A stretch of DNA of 45,467 bases from the NCBI GenBank assembly GCA_016842085.1, contig JAEVEX010000038.1, positions 1-45,467 on the forward strand, written 5' to 3'. The stretch is from Candidatus Thermoflexus tengchongensis. Its GTDB lineage: Bacteria; Chloroflexota; Anaerolineae; Thermoflexales; Thermoflexaceae. The position numbers were made by a program, and so were the translations under genes. This document shows, piece after piece, positions 38,696-45,342 of the stretch (position 1 is its first letter; each line of letters starts with the position of its first letter). Under the pieces are notes generated by a model. It was not told where the DNA came from. It made no database searches and saw only the letters and a program-made list of their open reading frames with translations.

Positions 38696-38724
38696 TTGAC
38701 TCCTGTGCCCTCCGGGGTTACAAT
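38696..38724 (+). promoter_or_regulatory. Promoter of the mercury-resistance operon
   Basis: TTGACT (38696-38701) and TACAAT (38719-38724) have a 17-bp spacer, 50 nt before the merA start. MerR-controlled promoters normally have a 19-bp spacer, so this one is probably not of that type. No merR gene is in the window. Confidence 0.82.
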
Positions 38725-38732
38725 GAGAGCGT

Positions 38733-38755
38733 ATCCCCATCCCGGGGATGGGGAT
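38733..38755. promoter_or_regulatory. Inverted repeat at the mer transcription start, candidate operator
   Basis: ATCCCCATCC (38733-38742) and GGATGGGGAT (38746-38755) are a perfect 10-bp inverted repeat around CGG. It begins about 8 nt after the -10, near the expected start site, and lies well placed for a repressor. It could instead be a 5' RNA hairpin just before the merA ribosome site. Confidence 0.6.
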
Positions 38756-38774
38756 TATAAACCAGGAGGCGTGT

Positions 38775-40427
38775 ATGCCGCTTCGTCTGAAGCTGGAGGT
38801 GCAGGGGATGACCTGTGACGATTGCGCCCGGCACGTGGAGCGGGCGCTGCGATCCGTGCCCGGGGTGCTCTCCGCCCATGTCCCCCACTGGTCCTCCGGG
38901 GAAGCGGAGGCCATCGCGGAGGGAGAGGTTCCCGCTTCCGCCATGGAGGAGGCGGTGGCCCGGGCGGGCTATCGGGCTCGGGTGCTGCGTTCGGAGCCCA
39001 TCGATCTCCCTCCGCCGCCGGCCGGCGATCATCGCTTCGATCTGATGATCATCGGCGGGGGCTCGGCGGCCTTCGCCGCCGCCATCCGGGCGGCCGAGCT
39101 GGGGGCCCGTGTGGCGGTCATCGAGGCGGAAACCCTGGGCGGGACCTGTGTGAACGTCGGGTGCGTCCCCTCCAAGATGCTCATCCGGGCGCTGGAGGTT
39201 TATCATCGGGCGGGCACCCATCGCTTCCGGGGGGTGGCCACCGCCCGGGGAGCTCTGCGCTGGGCGGAGCTGATCGCCCAGAAGGAAGCCCTCATTGCGG
39301 ATCTTCGCCGGGAGAAATATGAAGAGGTCCTGGCCGCCTATCCCCAGATCACCCTGATCCGGGGCCGGGCCCGCCTGACCGAAGGCGGGGCGGTGGCGGT
39401 AAACGGCACGACCTACGCGTCGGGATGGGTGATCCTGGCCACCGGCGCCCGGCCGTGGGTCCCGCCGATCCCCGGCCTGGCGGAGGCCGGATACCTCACC
39501 AGTATGGAAGCCCTCTCGCTGCAGGAGCTGCCCCGCTCTCTGATCGTGGTGGGCGCCAACGCGGTAGGGCTGGAGCTGGCCCAGGTCTTCGCCCGGGCCG
39601 GTGTGGCGGTTACGGTCCTGGAGGCCCTGCCCCGCATCGTCCCCTTCGAGGAGCCGGAGATCAGCGCCGCCCTGCAGCGCGCTCTGGAGGAGGAAGGCAT
39701 GGCCTTCCACACCGGGGTGCGGATCACCGGGGTGACCCGATTGGATGGCCGTGTGGTCCTCCGCTTCGAACAGGACGGCCAGGCCCGGGAGATCTCCGCG
39801 GAGCGGATCCTGATGGCCACCGGACGCCGGCCGAACACGGAGGGCCTGGGCCTGGAGGCGGTGGGCATCCTCCCGGGCCCCAGGGGCGAGATCCCGGTTA
39901 CGCCCTATATGCAGACGGCTCACCCGAGGATCTACGCCGCCGGCGATTGCACGAACCTGCCCATGTTCGTCTACGTGGCCGCGGCCAGCGGCACGGTGGC
40001 GGCGGAGAACGCCCTGCTGGGCAACCATCGGATGCTGGATCTGACCGCCGTCCCCCGGGTGACGTTCACGGATCCGGAGGTCGCCTCCGTCGGGTGGACG
40101 GAGGCGCAGGCGCGGGAGCGCGGGGAGACCCCGAAGACGATCCTGCTCCCGCTGGAGGCCGTGCCGCGAGCGCGCATCGCCTTTGAGACCCGTGGGGTGA
40201 TCAAGCTGGTGGCCGATGCGGCTACCGACCGGCTGCTGGGCATCCATCTAACGATGCCCCAGGCGGGGGAGGCCATCGCCGCCGGCCTGATCGCTCTCCA
40301 GGCCGGATACACCGCTCAGGATCTCGGTCGCACCCTCTTCCCCTATCTCACCTGGGCGGAAGGCCTGCGGCTGGCGGCCCAATCCTTCACGCGGGATGTG
40401 GCCCGGCTGAGCTGCTGTGCGGGATAG
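38775..40427 (+). CDS. merA: Mercury(II) reductase with N-terminal metal-binding domain
   Basis: A 550-aa flavoprotein that reduces Hg(II) to volatile Hg(0) with NADPH. An N-terminal HMA domain (residues 1-68) has the metal pair C14/C17 in GMTCDDCARHV. The FAD fold starts at LMIIGGGSAAF, the redox-active pair is C125/C130 in GGTCVNVGCVPSK, and the C-terminal Hg-delivery pair C547/C548 is in LSCCAG. The NAD domain has LIVVGANAVGLELAQ. AGGAGG lies 5 nt before the ATG. First gene of a ten-gene rightward unit. Confidence 0.96.
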   Translation: MPLRLKLEVQGMTCDDCARHVERALRSVPGVLSAHVPHWSSGEAEAIAEGEVPASAMEEAVARAGYRARVLRSEPIDLPPPPAGDHRFDLMIIGGGSAAFAAAIRAAELGARVAVIEAETLGGTCVNVGCVPSKMLIRALEVYHRAGTHRFRGVATARGALRWAELIAQKEALIADLRREKYEEVLAAYPQITLIRGRARLTEGGAVAVNGTTYASGWVILATGARPWVPPIPGLAEAGYLTSMEALSLQELPRSLIVVGANAVGLELAQVFARAGVAVTVLEALPRIVPFEEPEISAALQRALEEEGMAFHTGVRITGVTRLDGRVVLRFEQDGQAREISAERILMATGRRPNTEGLGLEAVGILPGPRGEIPVTPYMQTAHPRIYAAGDCTNLPMFVYVAAASGTVAAENALLGNHRMLDLTAVPRVTFTDPEVASVGWTEAQARERGETPKTILLPLEAVPRARIAFETRGVIKLVADAATDRLLGIHLTMPQAGEAIAAGLIALQAGYTAQDLGRTLFPYLTWAEGLRLAAQSFTRDVARLSCCAG

Positions 40428-40436
40428 GAGGAGGCG

Positions 40437-41108
40437 ATGGCGGAAACCCCCGATCCGGAGCTCCTGGCCCATCGGTTGATGATGGAGCTGAGCGGCCGCG
40501 GATGGGCGCTGGACCGCGGGCCGCTGTTTGAGACGGCGTTGCGCCTGCTCGCCCGAGGGGAGCCAGTCCCGCCGGAGCGCCTGGCGGAGGCGGTCGGATG
40601 GCCGGTGAAGACCGTCCGCGCGGCCCTGGAGGAAGACCCGGCGGTCGAGTGGGATGAGGCCGGGCGGCTGATCGGCTGGGGTCTCACCCTCCGCCCTACG
40701 CCGTTCCGCCTGGAGTGGGAGGGGCGATCCCTCTGGACCTGGTGTGCGCTGGACACATTGCTTTTTCCGCTCTGTCTGGAGCAGGAAGCCCGTGTGGAGG
40801 CCTCGTGCGCGCGAACCGGACAGCCCATCGGTTTCACCATTTCCCCTGCGGGGATTCGGGAAATCGAGCCTGCGGAATCCGTCCTGGTTCTGGCGGCTCC
40901 CGGACCCGGCGCTGGTATCCGGGCGGCGTTCTGCCAGCGAACGGTTTTTCTCGCCTCGCCGGCCCTGTTCCAGCCAGATCTCTGGGATCCGGTCCTGGCG
41001 TTGCTCTCGCTTCCAGAGGCCTTCCGGCTGGCGCAGCGGATCATGCCCTATCTGCGATGGGAAGGAGGGATCGGTTGCTGCGTCGCCATCCCCGGACCCG
41101 ATCTCTGA
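40437..41108 (+). CDS. merB: Organomercurial lyase
   Basis: A 223-aa enzyme that cleaves carbon-mercury bonds and hands Hg(II) to MerA. All three catalytic residues of the family are present with exact spacing: C103 and D106 in WCALDTLLFP and C166 in AAFCQRTVFLAS, corresponding to C96, D99 and C159 of the plasmid enzyme. The N-terminal winged-helix-like part (LAEAVGWPVKTVRAAL) is also typical. It begins 9 nt after merA, so the operon gives broad-spectrum resistance. Confidence 0.93.
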   Translation: MAETPDPELLAHRLMMELSGRGWALDRGPLFETALRLLARGEPVPPERLAEAVGWPVKTVRAALEEDPAVEWDEAGRLIGWGLTLRPTPFRLEWEGRSLWTWCALDTLLFPLCLEQEARVEASCARTGQPIGFTISPAGIREIEPAESVLVLAAPGPGAGIRAAFCQRTVFLASPALFQPDLWDPVLALLSLPEAFRLAQRIMPYLRWEGGIGCCVAIPGPDL

Positions 41109-42151
41109 TCACTATCCCCGTCCTCACGCTGGTGCTGGCCATCCCTTCCCGAAGCCCGCTTTCATCCTTCTGGCTGGCACCGGAGCCGGACGGGTGGACC
41201 CTGATTTTTCGCCCGGCGCTGGCCTCGGCTGTCGTAGCCCCCCAGGGGAAGTGGATCTGGCTGGCGTTTCAGCGGGATGGAGTCATCGATGCCCTGGCGG
41301 TGGAGGGCCGTTCCGGGCGAGTGCGGGCTCACATCCGGATGGGGACTTCTGGATGTTGCCTGCCTCCTCCGCTGGCGATGACACCGGATGGCCGCTGGGC
41401 GCTGGTGGGGGGCGATGCCGTGTGGGTCTATTCTCCGGAGCTGGGGAAGCGGCACCTGCTCCGCATCGAACCTTCGGACGCGGTCATCGCACTGGCGATC
41501 GCGCCGGATGGGCAGATTGCCGCGGGCGTCACGCTTAAAGGCCGGGTCCTCCTGTTCGATCCCGCTCACGGGGTGATCCTCCGGCGTTGGGATCCGGCAC
41601 CGGGCAGGCGGGAGGTTCCCGGGATCGCGTTCGCCCCAGACGGCCGGGAGCTCTGGATCGCCTGGAACCGAAGGCTGGAGGCCTGGTCTCTCCCTGCCCT
41701 CACGGCCCGGGCCATCCGGCCGCTGCCGTTTGATGGAACGCTGGTCCTCACGGCGATCGCTCCCGAGGGAACGTGGGGCCTGACTCTCGGCTATCGGGGG
41801 GAGGTCCTGGAGGGATGGATCCTCCGGCGGGAGGACCTGGCGCTCCAGCAGATCGTCCCCCTGGGCTCGCTGACGCTTCCCCGGCTTCGGCCGATCCGGG
41901 GGGGCTTCCAGATCGACAGCCTGTGGGAGCCATTCTCCTTCCAGATCCAGCGGGATCGGTGGATCCGCCAGGGGATCCGACAACAGGGCCCCGGGCCGCT
42001 GGCGGAGCGGATCCTCGAAGCGCTCTGCCTGGAATCCGAAGCGAGGATCCCTTCCTGCGGCGAGCTGATGGGCTCCAGCCCTCCGCTGGCCGATCGATTC
42101 CGCTGGAGGATCGGCGTGAAATCCAGCGGACAATCTGTTCGGTGCGGATGA
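41075..42151 (+). CDS. Secreted WD40/beta-propeller-like protein in mer operon
   Basis: A 358-aa protein of repeated blade-like segments: PPLAMTPDGRWALVGGDAVW, ALAIAPDGQIAAGVTLKGRV, GIAFAPDGRELWIAWNRRLE and LTAIAPEGTWGLTLGYRGEV. The N-terminus is basic, then hydrophobic (IPVLTLVLAIP), so export is likely. Start TTG 41075 is chosen for the upstream GGAAGGAGG; ATG 41057 is an alternative. It overlaps merB by 34 nt, so it is part of the operon, yet no mercury role is known for such a protein. Two adjacent Cys occur in GCCLPPP. Confidence 0.65.
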   Translation: MLRRHPRTRSLITIPVLTLVLAIPSRSPLSSFWLAPEPDGWTLIFRPALASAVVAPQGKWIWLAFQRDGVIDALAVEGRSGRVRAHIRMGTSGCCLPPPLAMTPDGRWALVGGDAVWVYSPELGKRHLLRIEPSDAVIALAIAPDGQIAAGVTLKGRVLLFDPAHGVILRRWDPAPGRREVPGIAFAPDGRELWIAWNRRLEAWSLPALTARAIRPLPFDGTLVLTAIAPEGTWGLTLGYRGEVLEGWILRREDLALQQIVPLGSLTLPRLRPIRGGFQIDSLWEPFSFQIQRDRWIRQGIRQQGPGPLAERILEALCLESEARIPSCGELMGSSPPLADRFRWRIGVKSSGQSVRCG

Positions 42152-42194
42152 GGTCGCCGCGGGCTTTCCTCTGACTCAGGAAAAGGGGGTGAGG

Positions 42195-42416
42195 ATGGAG
42201 CAAGAGATCGGGACCGATCGGAAAGCCGGGAAAACGGCGCTTCGCTGCGCGGAGTGCGGGGCCCTGATCGAGGGGACCCCTGTCTTCGCCCATGGGAAGG
42301 CGTTCTGTCATCCATGGCATGCAGAACGCTATCCTCGCACGCATCCCGGGTTCTGGCAACGGCTGTGGCGGGCCCTGAAGGGCCCGGGGGAATCCGGGGG
42401 AGGGGGTTGCTGTTGA
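42195..42416 (+). CDS. Small Cys-rich putative metal-binding protein
   Basis: A 73-aa protein with a zinc-ribbon-like core, CAEC...FCHPWH (C-x2-C, then C-H-x2-H about 18 residues later), and a flexible tail ending GGGGCC. The core faintly resembles DUF3330 proteins found near some mer genes. The terminal Cys pair could take up Hg(II). AGGGGGTGAGG precedes the ATG. Located between the propeller gene and the MerE-like gene. Confidence 0.7.
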   Translation: MEQEIGTDRKAGKTALRCAECGALIEGTPVFAHGKAFCHPWHAERYPRTHPGFWQRLWRALKGPGESGGGGCC

Positions 42417-42438: not shown

Positions 42439-42711
42439 ATGCTGGAGAGCATTCGCAGGGCCATCGGGCTGGCGCTGGCGCTGGTGACCTGCCCGTGCCA
42501 TCTGCCGGTGACGGCTCCCCTGCTTCTAAGTCTGCTGGCCGGGACGGCCCTGGGCACGTATTTGTCCAGCCATCTGGAGGTCCTGGCGGCCGCCTTCACC
42601 CTTCTTTTCCTGGGCGGTCTGGCCATGGCGCTCATGGGGTCTGGGGATCCGGGGAGGGCTCCGGGCGCGGCATGCCCGCCGGCGCGGACTTCCCCCCATC
42701 GGAGGCGATGA
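42439..42711 (+). CDS. MerE-like mercury transporter
   Basis: A 90-aa protein with two membrane helices. The first contains LVTCPCHLPVTAPLLLSLLA, matching the TCPCHLP motif of MerE, and the second follows SHLEVL. MerE moves Hg(II) and methylmercury across the membrane using the paired Cys. A Pro-rich tail of about 20 residues is extra. No MerT or MerC is seen, so this may be the only uptake protein of the operon. Confidence 0.85.
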   Translation: MLESIRRAIGLALALVTCPCHLPVTAPLLLSLLAGTALGTYLSSHLEVLAAAFTLLFLGGLAMALMGSGDPGRAPGAACPPARTSPHRRR

Positions 42712-42714
42712 GCG

Positions 42715-43158
42715 ATGATCCGAAAAGGGCAAACCCTTTCGCTGGCCGCTGTCCTTCTGCTCGCCGTTGCCTGCACGACGCCCCCCTCCCCAGCGGGCCT
42801 GCCGGAGGGGGCTCCAGAGGCTTTTTCGCAGGGGGAGTCGTCTCCCCCGCCATCGCCGATCCCAGCGACGGAACGATGGTCGGATGTCCTCCCCCTCCCT
42901 CCCACGGCCGCGCCTGCTGGGGTCGCCGCCCCTGGAAAGGGGGCGCGCCAGATTTACACCGCCTTTCGAACGGTCCCATCCCCCTGTTGCCCGCCCCGTC
43001 CGCTTCCCGAGATCCTGGAGCGATTGAGGCAATTCCCGGGGATCCTGGATGTTCGGCTCGAGGGCGGGCGCATGGTCGTGGACTATGATCCTCAGGTCCT
43101 GTCGGCGGAGGACCTCCCGGTGCTCTTCGCTCTGCACGGCTTGGAGGTGAACCCATGA
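42715..43158 (+). CDS. Lipoprotein with HMA/MerP-like domain
   Basis: A 147-aa predicted lipoprotein: signal ending LLAVAC (Cys near residue 20), a Pro/Ser-rich spacer of about 55 residues, then a domain of about 65 residues with the HMA order of strands and helices: IYTAFRTVPSPCC, PEILERLRQFPGILDVRLEG, GRMVVDYDPQVLSAEDLPVL. In place of the usual CxxC of MerP there is an adjacent Cys pair in PSPCCPP. It probably binds mercury outside the membrane next to the MerE-like transporter. It overlaps the next gene by 4 nt. Confidence 0.7.
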   Translation: MIRKGQTLSLAAVLLLAVACTTPPSPAGLPEGAPEAFSQGESSPPPSPIPATERWSDVLPLPPTAAPAGVAAPGKGARQIYTAFRTVPSPCCPPRPLPEILERLRQFPGILDVRLEGGRMVVDYDPQVLSAEDLPVLFALHGLEVNP

Positions 43159-43664
43159 GGCACCATCCGGCAAGCCGCGGCCTCCTGCTGGCCCTTGTGA
43201 TCCTCGCCGTCGCCTGTCAGCGCTCGTCCCCGCCGGCGGCTCCCGATTTCACCGTTCCCACGCTGGATGGGGGAACCTTCACGCTTTCGCAGGCCCTGCG
43301 CCAGGGCCGGCCAGTGGTCCTGTTCTTCATGGCCTACTGGTGCGGGACGTGCCTTCCGGAAGCCCGGGCCCTGGCCCGTCTGCATCAGGAGCTGGGGGAC
43401 CGGGTGGCGATCCTCGCCCTGGATGTGGACCCTACCAGCACGCCGGAGGCCCTGGCGGCCTTCCGGGAAGCCGCGGGGAACCCGGATTACTTTTGGGGCT
43501 TCGATCGGGACAACCAGGTGGTGCTGGCCTATCGGGTGACCCGTCTGGACACCACGGTGATCATCGGGCCGGATGGCCGGGTGGTCTATCGGGATGAGGT
43601 GCCGACGTCGTATAAAACCCTCGCGGCGCAGATCGCCCGGGTGCTCCCGCGGATCTCCCGCTGA
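43155..43664 (+). CDS. TlpA-like thioredoxin-fold lipoprotein
   Basis: A 169-aa lipoprotein (lipobox Cys21 in AVACQ) with a thioredoxin fold of the TlpA/AhpC type: APDFTVPTLDGGTFTLSQAL, active site W62-C63-G-T-C66, and the cis-Pro region RLDTTVIIGPDGRVVYR. It should act as a thiol-disulfide reductant outside the membrane. Followed 18 nt later by a CcdA-like gene that can supply electrons. In this operon it may keep mercury-ligand thiols reduced. Confidence 0.9.
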   Translation: MRHHPASRGLLLALVILAVACQRSSPPAAPDFTVPTLDGGTFTLSQALRQGRPVVLFFMAYWCGTCLPEARALARLHQELGDRVAILALDVDPTSTPEALAAFREAAGNPDYFWGFDRDNQVVLAYRVTRLDTTVIIGPDGRVVYRDEVPTSYKTLAAQIARVLPRISR

Positions 43665-43682: not shown

Positions 43683-44351
43683 ATGGATCTTCCCCTCACC
43701 CTTTATGCGCTGGTGACCGGGATGATGGCGACCGTGAATCCGTGCGGCCTGGCCATGCTGCCGGCCTATCTGGGGTATGCGATGGCTCGCACGCGGGGAC
43801 GGATTCCCCTGGGGGAGGCGTTCTCGATGGGGCTGGGCATGGCGGCGGGCTGCACCGGCCTGTTCGTGGTGGCCGGGATCGCCCTGGCCCTGGGGCTGAG
43901 AGCCCTTACCCGCTGGTTCCCCCTTTTCGGTTTGGGGATTGGCGGGCTCCTGGTCCTCCTGGCCCTTTCCCGATGGCGGGGGCGTCCCTGGCCGATCCCC
44001 CGGCTTCCCATAGACTGGCGTCCTGAGGAACGCCCATCCCGATGGGCATGGGTGGGCTTCGGGCTCGCCTATGGGACGGCCTCCCTGGGGTGCACCCTTC
44101 CGCTCTTCCTGGCCCTGGTGGGATTCTCCCTCTCCCGTCGGAGCGGGGCGGAGGCACTGCTCCTCATCCTTTTCTATGGGCTGGGGATGGGCGGGGTGCT
44201 GGTCGCTCTGGCTCTGGCCATGGCCCTTGTGGGGAGCGCACTGACGCGCCGTCTCCGGGCGATGGCGGCCGCCCTGGAAACGGGGGGGAACCTGCTGCTA
44301 CTGGGAGCGGGCCTGTATTTGATTTACTATTGGAGTCAAGCCTTATTTTGA
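43683..44351 (+). CDS. CcdA/DsbD-family membrane electron carrier
   Basis: A 222-aa protein with six membrane helices. The conserved Cys pair is seen as NPCG (N19-P20-C21-G22) in the first helix and SLGCTLP in the fourth. CcdA carries reducing equivalents from cytoplasmic thioredoxin to outer-face thioredoxin-like proteins. Position right after the TlpA-like gene fits a dedicated pair. GGAGG lies upstream of the ATG. Confidence 0.88.
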   Translation: MDLPLTLYALVTGMMATVNPCGLAMLPAYLGYAMARTRGRIPLGEAFSMGLGMAAGCTGLFVVAGIALALGLRALTRWFPLFGLGIGGLLVLLALSRWRGRPWPIPRLPIDWRPEERPSRWAWVGFGLAYGTASLGCTLPLFLALVGFSLSRRSGAEALLLILFYGLGMGGVLVALALAMALVGSALTRRLRAMAAALETGGNLLLLGAGLYLIYYWSQALF

Positions 44352-44363
44352 ACGGAGGTCATC

Positions 44364-44843
44364 ATGGGCGAGGCTGTGGTATATCGTTCCTATGTGCGGG
44401 TCGAGCGGGTGAAAGGTCCGCTCCGGCGGGCTTTCCTTCCGGTGGAGCCCCAGCCCATCCTGTTTGGGGTCCATTCTGAAGTTGCCCAGCATTATGGGGT
44501 GGACCCTCACGTCTACGAGCCCCATGCCACCACTCTGGACTACCTGGTGGCGGCGGCAGCGGGCTGACTCACCGGGACCTTTGGGGGCGCGCTGGAAGCG
44601 CGCGGGATCCCGGCAGGGGAGGGTCGGCTGATCGCCGAAGCGGTGGGGGAAATCGAAAAGGAAGACAATGTCCTGGTCCTGCGGCGGATCCATGTCGCCT
44701 ATCGCCTGCGTATCGCTCCCTCTCAGATGGAGACTGCCCGTCGTGTCCATAGCTTCCATGCCAATTACTGTCCGGTCGCACGAACCATTCGAGATTGTGT
44801 GGCCATCACCACCGAGCTGGAGCTGATCCCGGAGGAATCCTGA
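44364..44843 (+). CDS. OsmC-family protein with in-frame TGA (candidate selenoprotein)
   Basis: One frame runs from ATG 44364 to TGA 44841-44843 (159 residues) but is broken by a single TGA at 44565-44567. The protein is OsmC/Ohr-like: the segment before the TGA is TTLDYLVAAAAG and after it LTGTFGGALEARGI, exactly where the family has its first catalytic Cys. The second catalytic Cys is C136 in HANYCPVARTI. A TGA at the one position where selenocysteine would replace Cys, the TGAC context and a hairpin downstream suggest selenocysteine-68. Nonsense mutation or sequence error remains possible. OsmC proteins reduce organic peroxides or handle thiols; here it follows CcdA in the mer operon. Confidence 0.7.
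44572..44613 (+). promoter_or_regulatory. SECIS-like hairpin after in-frame TGA
   Basis: CCGGGA (44572-44577) pairs with TCCCGG (44608-44613), and inside it GCGCGC (44587-44592) pairs with GCGCGC (44598-44603) around loop TGGAA. The apical loop begins 25 nt after the TGA and has G at its second position. This fits the general bacterial SECIS pattern, but GC-rich DNA forms hairpins easily. Confidence 0.5.
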
Positions 44844-44931: not shown

Positions 44932-45342
44932 ATGGCGTATCTCACCACGGTTTCCGGACGGCTGTTGCCGGTGGACCCGGCCTATACAACCCTGGCGGCT
45001 CAGGATCCCACGCAGGCAGAGACCATGTGTCCGGTCTGTGGCGGGCGGTTTCCCTTCCGGATCCGGCGCTGGACCCTGGAGCGGATGATCCGGGGATGGC
45101 ATTTCGACAAGATCCGGGATACGGGCTTCCATTTCTGCGAGACCCCGATCTGCCCTATCGTCTATTTCCACAACGGGGAAGGCCTCTACTTCGCCCTGGA
45201 GGATCTCCAGGTTCCAGTGGGGATCAAGCGTCTGGAGGCTCCGATCCCGGTCTGTTACTGCAAGGGGGTGGATGAGCAGACCATCCTTTATGAGATCGTG
45301 GTCAAACGTTGCTGCGATTCCATCAAGGACATCCAGGCTTAG
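44932..45342 (+). CDS. CopZ-type metallochaperone (Cys-rich N-terminal domain), probably truncated
   Basis: A 136-aa protein with the zinc/2Fe-2S domain of CopZ-like metallochaperones: C33-P-V-C36, FHFCETPICPIVYFHN, VGIKRLEAPIPVCYCKG, and a C-terminal KRCCDSIKDIQA. Related proteins usually continue from this CCDS..DIQ segment with another Cys-containing stretch or an HMA domain. Here the stop arises at the edge of an IS5-family element, so the gene is probably interrupted. The gap 44844-44931 shows only a possible ribosome site (CGGAGG). It is the last visible mer-operon gene. Confidence 0.75.
   Translation: MAYLTTVSGRLLPVDPAYTTLAAQDPTQAETMCPVCGGRFPFRIRRWTLERMIRGWHFDKIRDTGFHFCETPICPIVYFHNGEGLYFALEDLQVPVGIKRLEAPIPVCYCKGVDEQTILYEIVVKRCCDSIKDIQA

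Follow-up and report, generated by a model that had tools for sequence, protein, structure and literature searches.

Single in-frame stop codons in draft genomes are frequently the mark of a pseudogene or a sequencing error, and this is the first question raised by an OsmC-family gene in the window (the whole stretch of 45,467 nucleotides analysed here): is its internal TGA an ordinary stop followed by dead sequence, or a codon for selenocysteine (Sec)? A second question is what such a protein might do among mercury-resistance genes. The gene and its signals are arranged as follows.

44364..44843, + strand, OsmC-fold selenoprotein gene, 159 codons across one internal TGA, ending at the stop TGA 44841-44843
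44354..44358, + strand, ribosome-binding site GGAGG, assigned from the sequence, with the ATG 5 nt downstream
44565..44567, + strand, Sec codon U68, the in-frame TGA, where OsmC has its peroxidatic Cys
44573..44612, + strand, predicted bacterial SECIS element, stem 44587-44593 / 44597-44603, loop GGA 44594-44596
44769..44771, + strand, codon of the second redox Cys, C136, which does not vary across the family

If the TGA is decoded as Sec, positions 44364-44840 form a frame of 159 residues in which U68 corresponds to 44565-44567 and exactly 91 sense codons lie 3' of it before the stop. An open frame of 91 codons is expected by chance ~6% of the time at the base composition here, and is weak evidence alone. 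The match to the Pfam profile of the OsmC/Ohr superfamily (PF02566) extends across the TGA (residues 58-151, 2.4e-12), its 47.6 bits exceeding the curated cut-off of 27.5, and alignment with ordinary OsmC proteins (the genome's own Cys-type paralogue and three others) places U68 at their catalytic Cys and C136 at their second Cys. Both statements of the earlier note on the frame, that a single TGA occupies the first catalytic Cys of an OsmC-family gene and that 91 sense codons and the second Cys follow, are confirmed by the Pfam match, the frame as read and the alignment. No NCBIfam model names the gene, and the plasmid collection searched yielded 0 matches.

The predicted structure agrees with this assignment. 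An AlphaFold2 model built from 37 homologues reached a pLDDT of 91.8 and a pTM of 0.85, and the structures that it matches best in Foldseek belong to the OsmC/Ohr group (probability 1.00, TM ~0.7), with U68 and C136 aligned with both redox Cys residues. Searching the PDB with phmmer gave no match for the single sequence, and 2onf only (0.0011) with the alignment. The protein thus shares its fold and redox-residue positions with the Cys hydroperoxide reductases of the OsmC/Ohr group (2onf, 1nye, 1ukk, 6ebc), but differs from them in having Sec in place of the first Cys and in being ~10-18% identical to the solved structures.

Whether the TGA is a lesion can be judged from its conservation. Homologues were fetched in one contig scan with six peptide patterns, none of which covers the TGA, so that the scan carries no bias for it. 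The 80 loci recovered are 56-89% identical to the gene and come from Chloroflexota, Acidobacteriota, Thermodesulfobacteriota, Nitrospirota, Gemmatimonadota, Actinomycetota, Myxococcota, Poribacteria and others; in all 80, from independent assemblies, a TGA aligns with codon 68. For instance, two other Thermoflexus genomes carry a gene 89% identical with the identical TGA. Searches of 400 Chloroflexota genomes found one TGA in nearly every strong match, and among 396 genomes of a second phylum (Acidobacteriota, that of locus L082) all 33 matches carry a TGA, including those with as little as 29% identity. For the three Thermoflexus genes, dN/dS 3' of the TGA is 0.09-0.16, indicating purifying selection on the part that a stop would leave dead. 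On the sequences compared, the presence of the TGA in 80/80 homologues is the decisive evidence, and the subfamily that they outline is almost exclusively Sec-containing and broad, taking in Chloroflexota, Acidobacteriota and other phyla.

The exchange of TGA for a Cys codon, which the earlier note proposed to look for among homologues, also exists: the position is Cys in ordinary OsmC proteins, and one relative in Chloroflexota (L116, 6699-7163, + strand) has TGC in place of TGA, together with altered hairpin codons. Another Chloroflexota relative (L117, 6844-7218, - strand) has TGG.

Incorporation of Sec requires dedicated machinery, and the four components that the earlier note named, selA, selB, selD and tRNA-Sec, are all present in the Thermoflexus genome. 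SelA scores 564 bits, SelB is above its profile cut-off, tRNA-Sec scores 80.8 bits with the anticodon TCA (tRNA-Sec(UCA)), and SelD (L017, 1441-2511) is itself of the Sec type, its canonical CAGUASK site being encoded with an in-frame TGA. The genome thus encodes both the machinery and at least one further selenoprotein. Among 50 genomes with a homologue, SelA is above the cut-off in 41 and present as fragments in two more; it was not seen in seven, most of which are draft assemblies.

The remaining component is the RNA signal. The hairpin downstream of the TGA has a 7-bp stem, the loop GGA, a UGA-to-loop spacing of 26 nt and an energy of -21.8 kcal/mol, and the published criteria for a bacterial SECIS are a loop of 3-9 nt with a G in the first two loop positions, a spacing of 16-37 nt and an MFE <= -7.5 kcal/mol (PMC13188914). 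The hairpin of the earlier note therefore stands, but not its spacing, which had been given as 25 nt. The published model is satisfied by 77 of 81 sites, the window's own included, and in 68 of these 77 the loop lies at exactly 26 nt. Random synonymous versions of the genes pass the same model 69% of the time, because the family is G+C-rich, so that a pass is not strong evidence alone and the constraint on codons is the stronger argument; taken singly, the hairpin of this gene has a fold z-score of -2.1, which is weak evidence as well. The stem codons G75, A76, L77, A79 and R80 show the strongest departure from family codon usage among ~60 conserved codons (position 159, to which a single sequence contributes a letter, is excluded from the ranking). 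The two Ala codons of the hairpin are GCG in 74/80 and about 77/79 homologues, versus 34% elsewhere, and CGG is never used for the Arg codon in the stem. At the end pairs, pairing is kept through G-C/G-U and U-A/U-G changes. No compensatory double changes occur across the homologues, since the coding sequence fixes both arms, and the evidence at the RNA level therefore rests on synonymous codon choice; an Rfam search around the TGA site returned nothing meaningful. The likeness to a bacterial SECIS was thus upheld on scoring, with a conservation beyond the needs of the protein. Just 3' of the hairpin, the I82 codon (44607-44609) is ATC, ATT or ATA in 24 homologues each, an equal use of Ile codons that is unusual for such G+C-rich genes.

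A reading of the TGA as Trp, or as a site of leaky read-through, could appeal to the TGG of the one relative noted above. Yet the same gene ends with a TGA, the genome encodes tRNA-Sec(UCA), the site is Cys in ordinary OsmC proteins, and a SECIS-type hairpin with frozen synonymous codons lies 3' of it, which makes decoding by anything other than Sec very improbable. For a pseudogene or sequencing error the chances are close to nil, given a TGA shared by 80/80 homologues of independent assemblies, a dN/dS well under 1 beyond it and the presence of the Sec machinery. These explanations were accordingly rejected, and the conservation of the TGA, the machinery, the Cys form and the SECIS hairpin with its codon constraint together identify a selenoprotein, whose active site almost certainly carries Sec.

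OsmC-like selenoproteins are not without precedent, and their occurrence in marine metagenomes, as stated in the earlier note, is documented for the Sargasso Sea in 2005 (PMC1088965) and the GOS collection in 2008 (PMC2398784). Reviews catalogue them with the motif UxxT, from 3-5 marine sequences (PMC9312934, PMC13188914). The catalogued protein (PF02566 / COG1765) likewise has Sec for the catalytic Cys and a bacterial SECIS after the UGA. The present family, in contrast, has the motif U-x-x-G-T, is spread over many phyla, is nearly always of the Sec form and includes members in a mer operon. In the window the motif reads U68-L-T-G-T, the +3 residue G71 being an invariant Gly in the alignment rather than the Thr of the list. 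On comparison with the listed motif, the protein is therefore filed as an OsmC-fold selenoprotein rather than as a member of the catalogued subfamily.

The second question concerns the surroundings of the gene, which is the ninth of ten co-directional genes starting with merA and merB, and begins 12 nt 3' of a CcdA/DsbD-like gene.

38696..38724, + strand, sigma-70-like promoter TTGACT-17-TACAAT preceding merA; supported by the consensus match only, with 0.5 such sites expected and 1 found
38748..40427, + strand, merA, mercuric reductase with N-terminal HMA domain (TIGR02053 552 bits, cut-off 454)
40437..41108, + strand, merB, organomercurial lyase (PF03243 1.4e-24)
41105..42151, + strand, beta-propeller-like protein (weak WD40 matches only; synteny)
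42189..42416, + strand, small protein with the C-terminal residues GGGGCC, conserved across the three Thermoflexus genomes
42439..42711, + strand, merE-like mercury transporter (PF05052 4.1e-8)
42715..43158, + strand, predicted lipoprotein with a CCPP motif (from translation; no Pfam match; synteny conserved)
43155..43664, + strand, TlpA/ResA-like thiol-disulfide protein, YWCGTC (PF00578 5.3e-18)
43683..44351, + strand, CcdA/DsbD-like membrane protein (DsbD_TM 0.0019, below cut-off; synteny)
44932..45342, + strand, CopZ N-terminal-type protein (PF18423 5.3e-10), shortened by an insertion-sequence-like end

The MerA, MerB, MerE, TlpA-like and CcdA-like genes bear out the earlier placement of the gene inside a mercury operon, where it is co-directional with merA/merB in the window and in both other Thermoflexus contigs, L021 and L113. 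As in a canonical mer operon, merA, merB and a merE-like gene stand together; unlike it, no merR, merT or merP is recognised among the genes annotated here, and TlpA/CcdA-type thiol genes, the Sec-containing OsmC and a CopZ-type protein are added. The order common to the three Thermoflexus genomes is merA-merB-small CC protein-merE-lipoprotein-tlpA-ccdA-osmC(U)-copZN (the L021 contig begins within merB), and the beta-propeller-like gene is present in L021 and was not found in L113. The GGGGCC-ending protein and the SPCCPP lipoprotein are small uncharacterised Cys-pair proteins kept in all three operons. The CopZ-type gene is 40 or more residues longer in L021 and L113, with further Cys, and at the contig end (45337-45467) the - strand of the window reads like the end of an insertion-sequence transposase.

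How far this linkage reflects function is less obvious. In a complete chromosome of the same genus (L134, 3064-7003), MerA adjoins the same divergent gene as in the window, without the merB-to-copZ block. Thus osmC(U) travels with the block, which, to judge from these gene orders, is an accessory one, gained or lost. The selenoprotein could then be a chance passenger of an accessory mer block, unrelated to mercury: in the complete genome this site holds MerA but no block, a single insertion may account for the three Thermoflexus copies, and outside Thermoflexus neither a conserved gene neighbourhood nor a constant neighbour was found. Against a mere passenger, the gene lies 12 nt behind the CcdA-like gene and has kept 89% identity where its neighbour has dropped to 71%, and in two other lineages the gene is again linked to MerA. 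In Haloechinothrix halophila, 5.2 kb separate MerA from osmC(U), an interval that contains a MerR gene and, judged by its sequence, an HMA-type ATPase; in the hot-spring bacteria HR08 and HR10 the distance is about 21-26 kb, with MerTP and CopZ-type genes nearer. Thermoflexus, Haloechinothrix and HR08/HR10 fall on separate branches of a gene tree of uneven support, and three MerA links among ~eleven MerA-bearing lineages exceed a rough binomial expectation (p ~5e-4, post hoc and from a small sample). A passenger unrelated to mercury is on balance rather unlikely.

The clusters of HR08 and HR10 (L140/L141 and L138/L139) contain MerTP fusions, a CopZ-type protein and MerA at 5-26 kb from osmC(U), with a MerR-like gene in the HR10 cluster and a MerB-like match in that of HR08. 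MerA-like matches beside the osmC gene in L023/L105 and L093 were left out of the MerA links, since they are only 36-38% identical to the MerA of the window and the MerA above the cut-off in the L023 genome is on another contig.

Selenols bind Hg(II) very strongly, and the linkage also raises the possibility that the protein handles mercury itself, whereby U68 and C136 would capture cytosolic Hg(II)/RHg+ and pass it to MerB or MerA. Such a role is suggested by the merA-merB-merE operons of three Thermoflexus genomes and by the MerA linkage on separate branches of the tree (Haloechinothrix, HR08/HR10). However, association with mer genes is not constant across the family: of the 79 other genomes that carry the gene, only 10 have a MerA above the cut-off and 69 have none above it. 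With >85% of bearers lacking MerA the protein is not mercury-specific, and the hint in the earlier note that the selenol serves Hg(II) binding is unsupported as a main function for this reason. In addition, the active-site pair is identical in mer-linked and other copies, and tight bonding of Hg to Se would be expected to inactivate the protein instead. Capture and transfer of mercury is therefore an unlikely role, and it is similarly doubtful that the selenol acts directly in detoxification in the wider sense, either as an acceptor of cytosolic Hg(II)/RHg+ or as a reductant freeing mercury-poisoned thiols for MerA. Direct binding or handling of Hg by the selenol is possible, and is not needed to explain the data.

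The account that we favour, and consider reasonably probable as a whole, is that of an OsmC/Ohr-fold selenol peroxidase protecting the cell under mercury stress. The invariant Sec-Cys pair, as aligned, and the modelled fold point to a thiol/selenol peroxidase; from the computed Sec coding, fold, active-site pair and operon position we infer the peroxidase activity and its reductant, and from the position of the gene its role in mercury stress. SelB would bind the hairpin 3' of the UGA and bring Sec-tRNA-Sec, and translation would proceed with Sec at position 68. In the folded protein, U68 would attack a hydroperoxide, C136 would close a selenyl-sulfide bond with U68, and a cellular thiol, possibly a dithiol or thioredoxin-like reductant, would reset the enzyme. 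In Thermoflexus the gene would be co-made with MerA, MerB and the TlpA/CcdA thiol relay, and the product would limit the oxidative damage caused by mercury. In Thermus thermophilus, ROS increase under Hg(II) and the osmC and tlpA transcripts are induced (PMC6445937), which is consistent with protection by a member of a mer operon that includes TlpA- and CcdA-like genes. Since most relatives are found in bacteria without a mer operon, the protein probably acts as a general antioxidant enzyme based on selenium, one that has joined the operon.

Sec proteins tied to mercury or organometal genes are known in the form of MerP, MerT, a MerA-like protein and the MerB-like SaoL (PMC2398784, PMC9312934, PMC13188914). 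In these, Sec is in the mercury proteins themselves, whereas here MerA and MerB are of the Cys type and the Sec lies in an OsmC-type redox protein next to them. The earlier remark on mercury thus needs correction in that links to mercury are known for selenoproteins in general; for the OsmC selenoprotein, no paper joining it with a mer operon was found in a literature search that did not take in two of the most relevant papers. What is new is that the gene lies inside a mer operon (in three Thermoflexus genomes, and is more loosely linked in two unrelated lineages) and that an OsmC subfamily nearly always of the Sec form extends beyond a few marine sequences.

Automatic annotation would divide such genes at the TGA and overlook the selenoprotein. 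If the selenol did act directly on mercury, the protein would be a mer component that works with selenium and was recruited on separate occasions by Thermoflexus, by an actinobacterium and by the HR08/HR10 lineage. On the reading favoured here, a selenoenzyme is encoded within a mercury operon, in a setting where mercury threatens selenium more than any other atom, and the arrangement raises the question of whether selenium serves these bacteria as a protection against mercury or presents it with a target.
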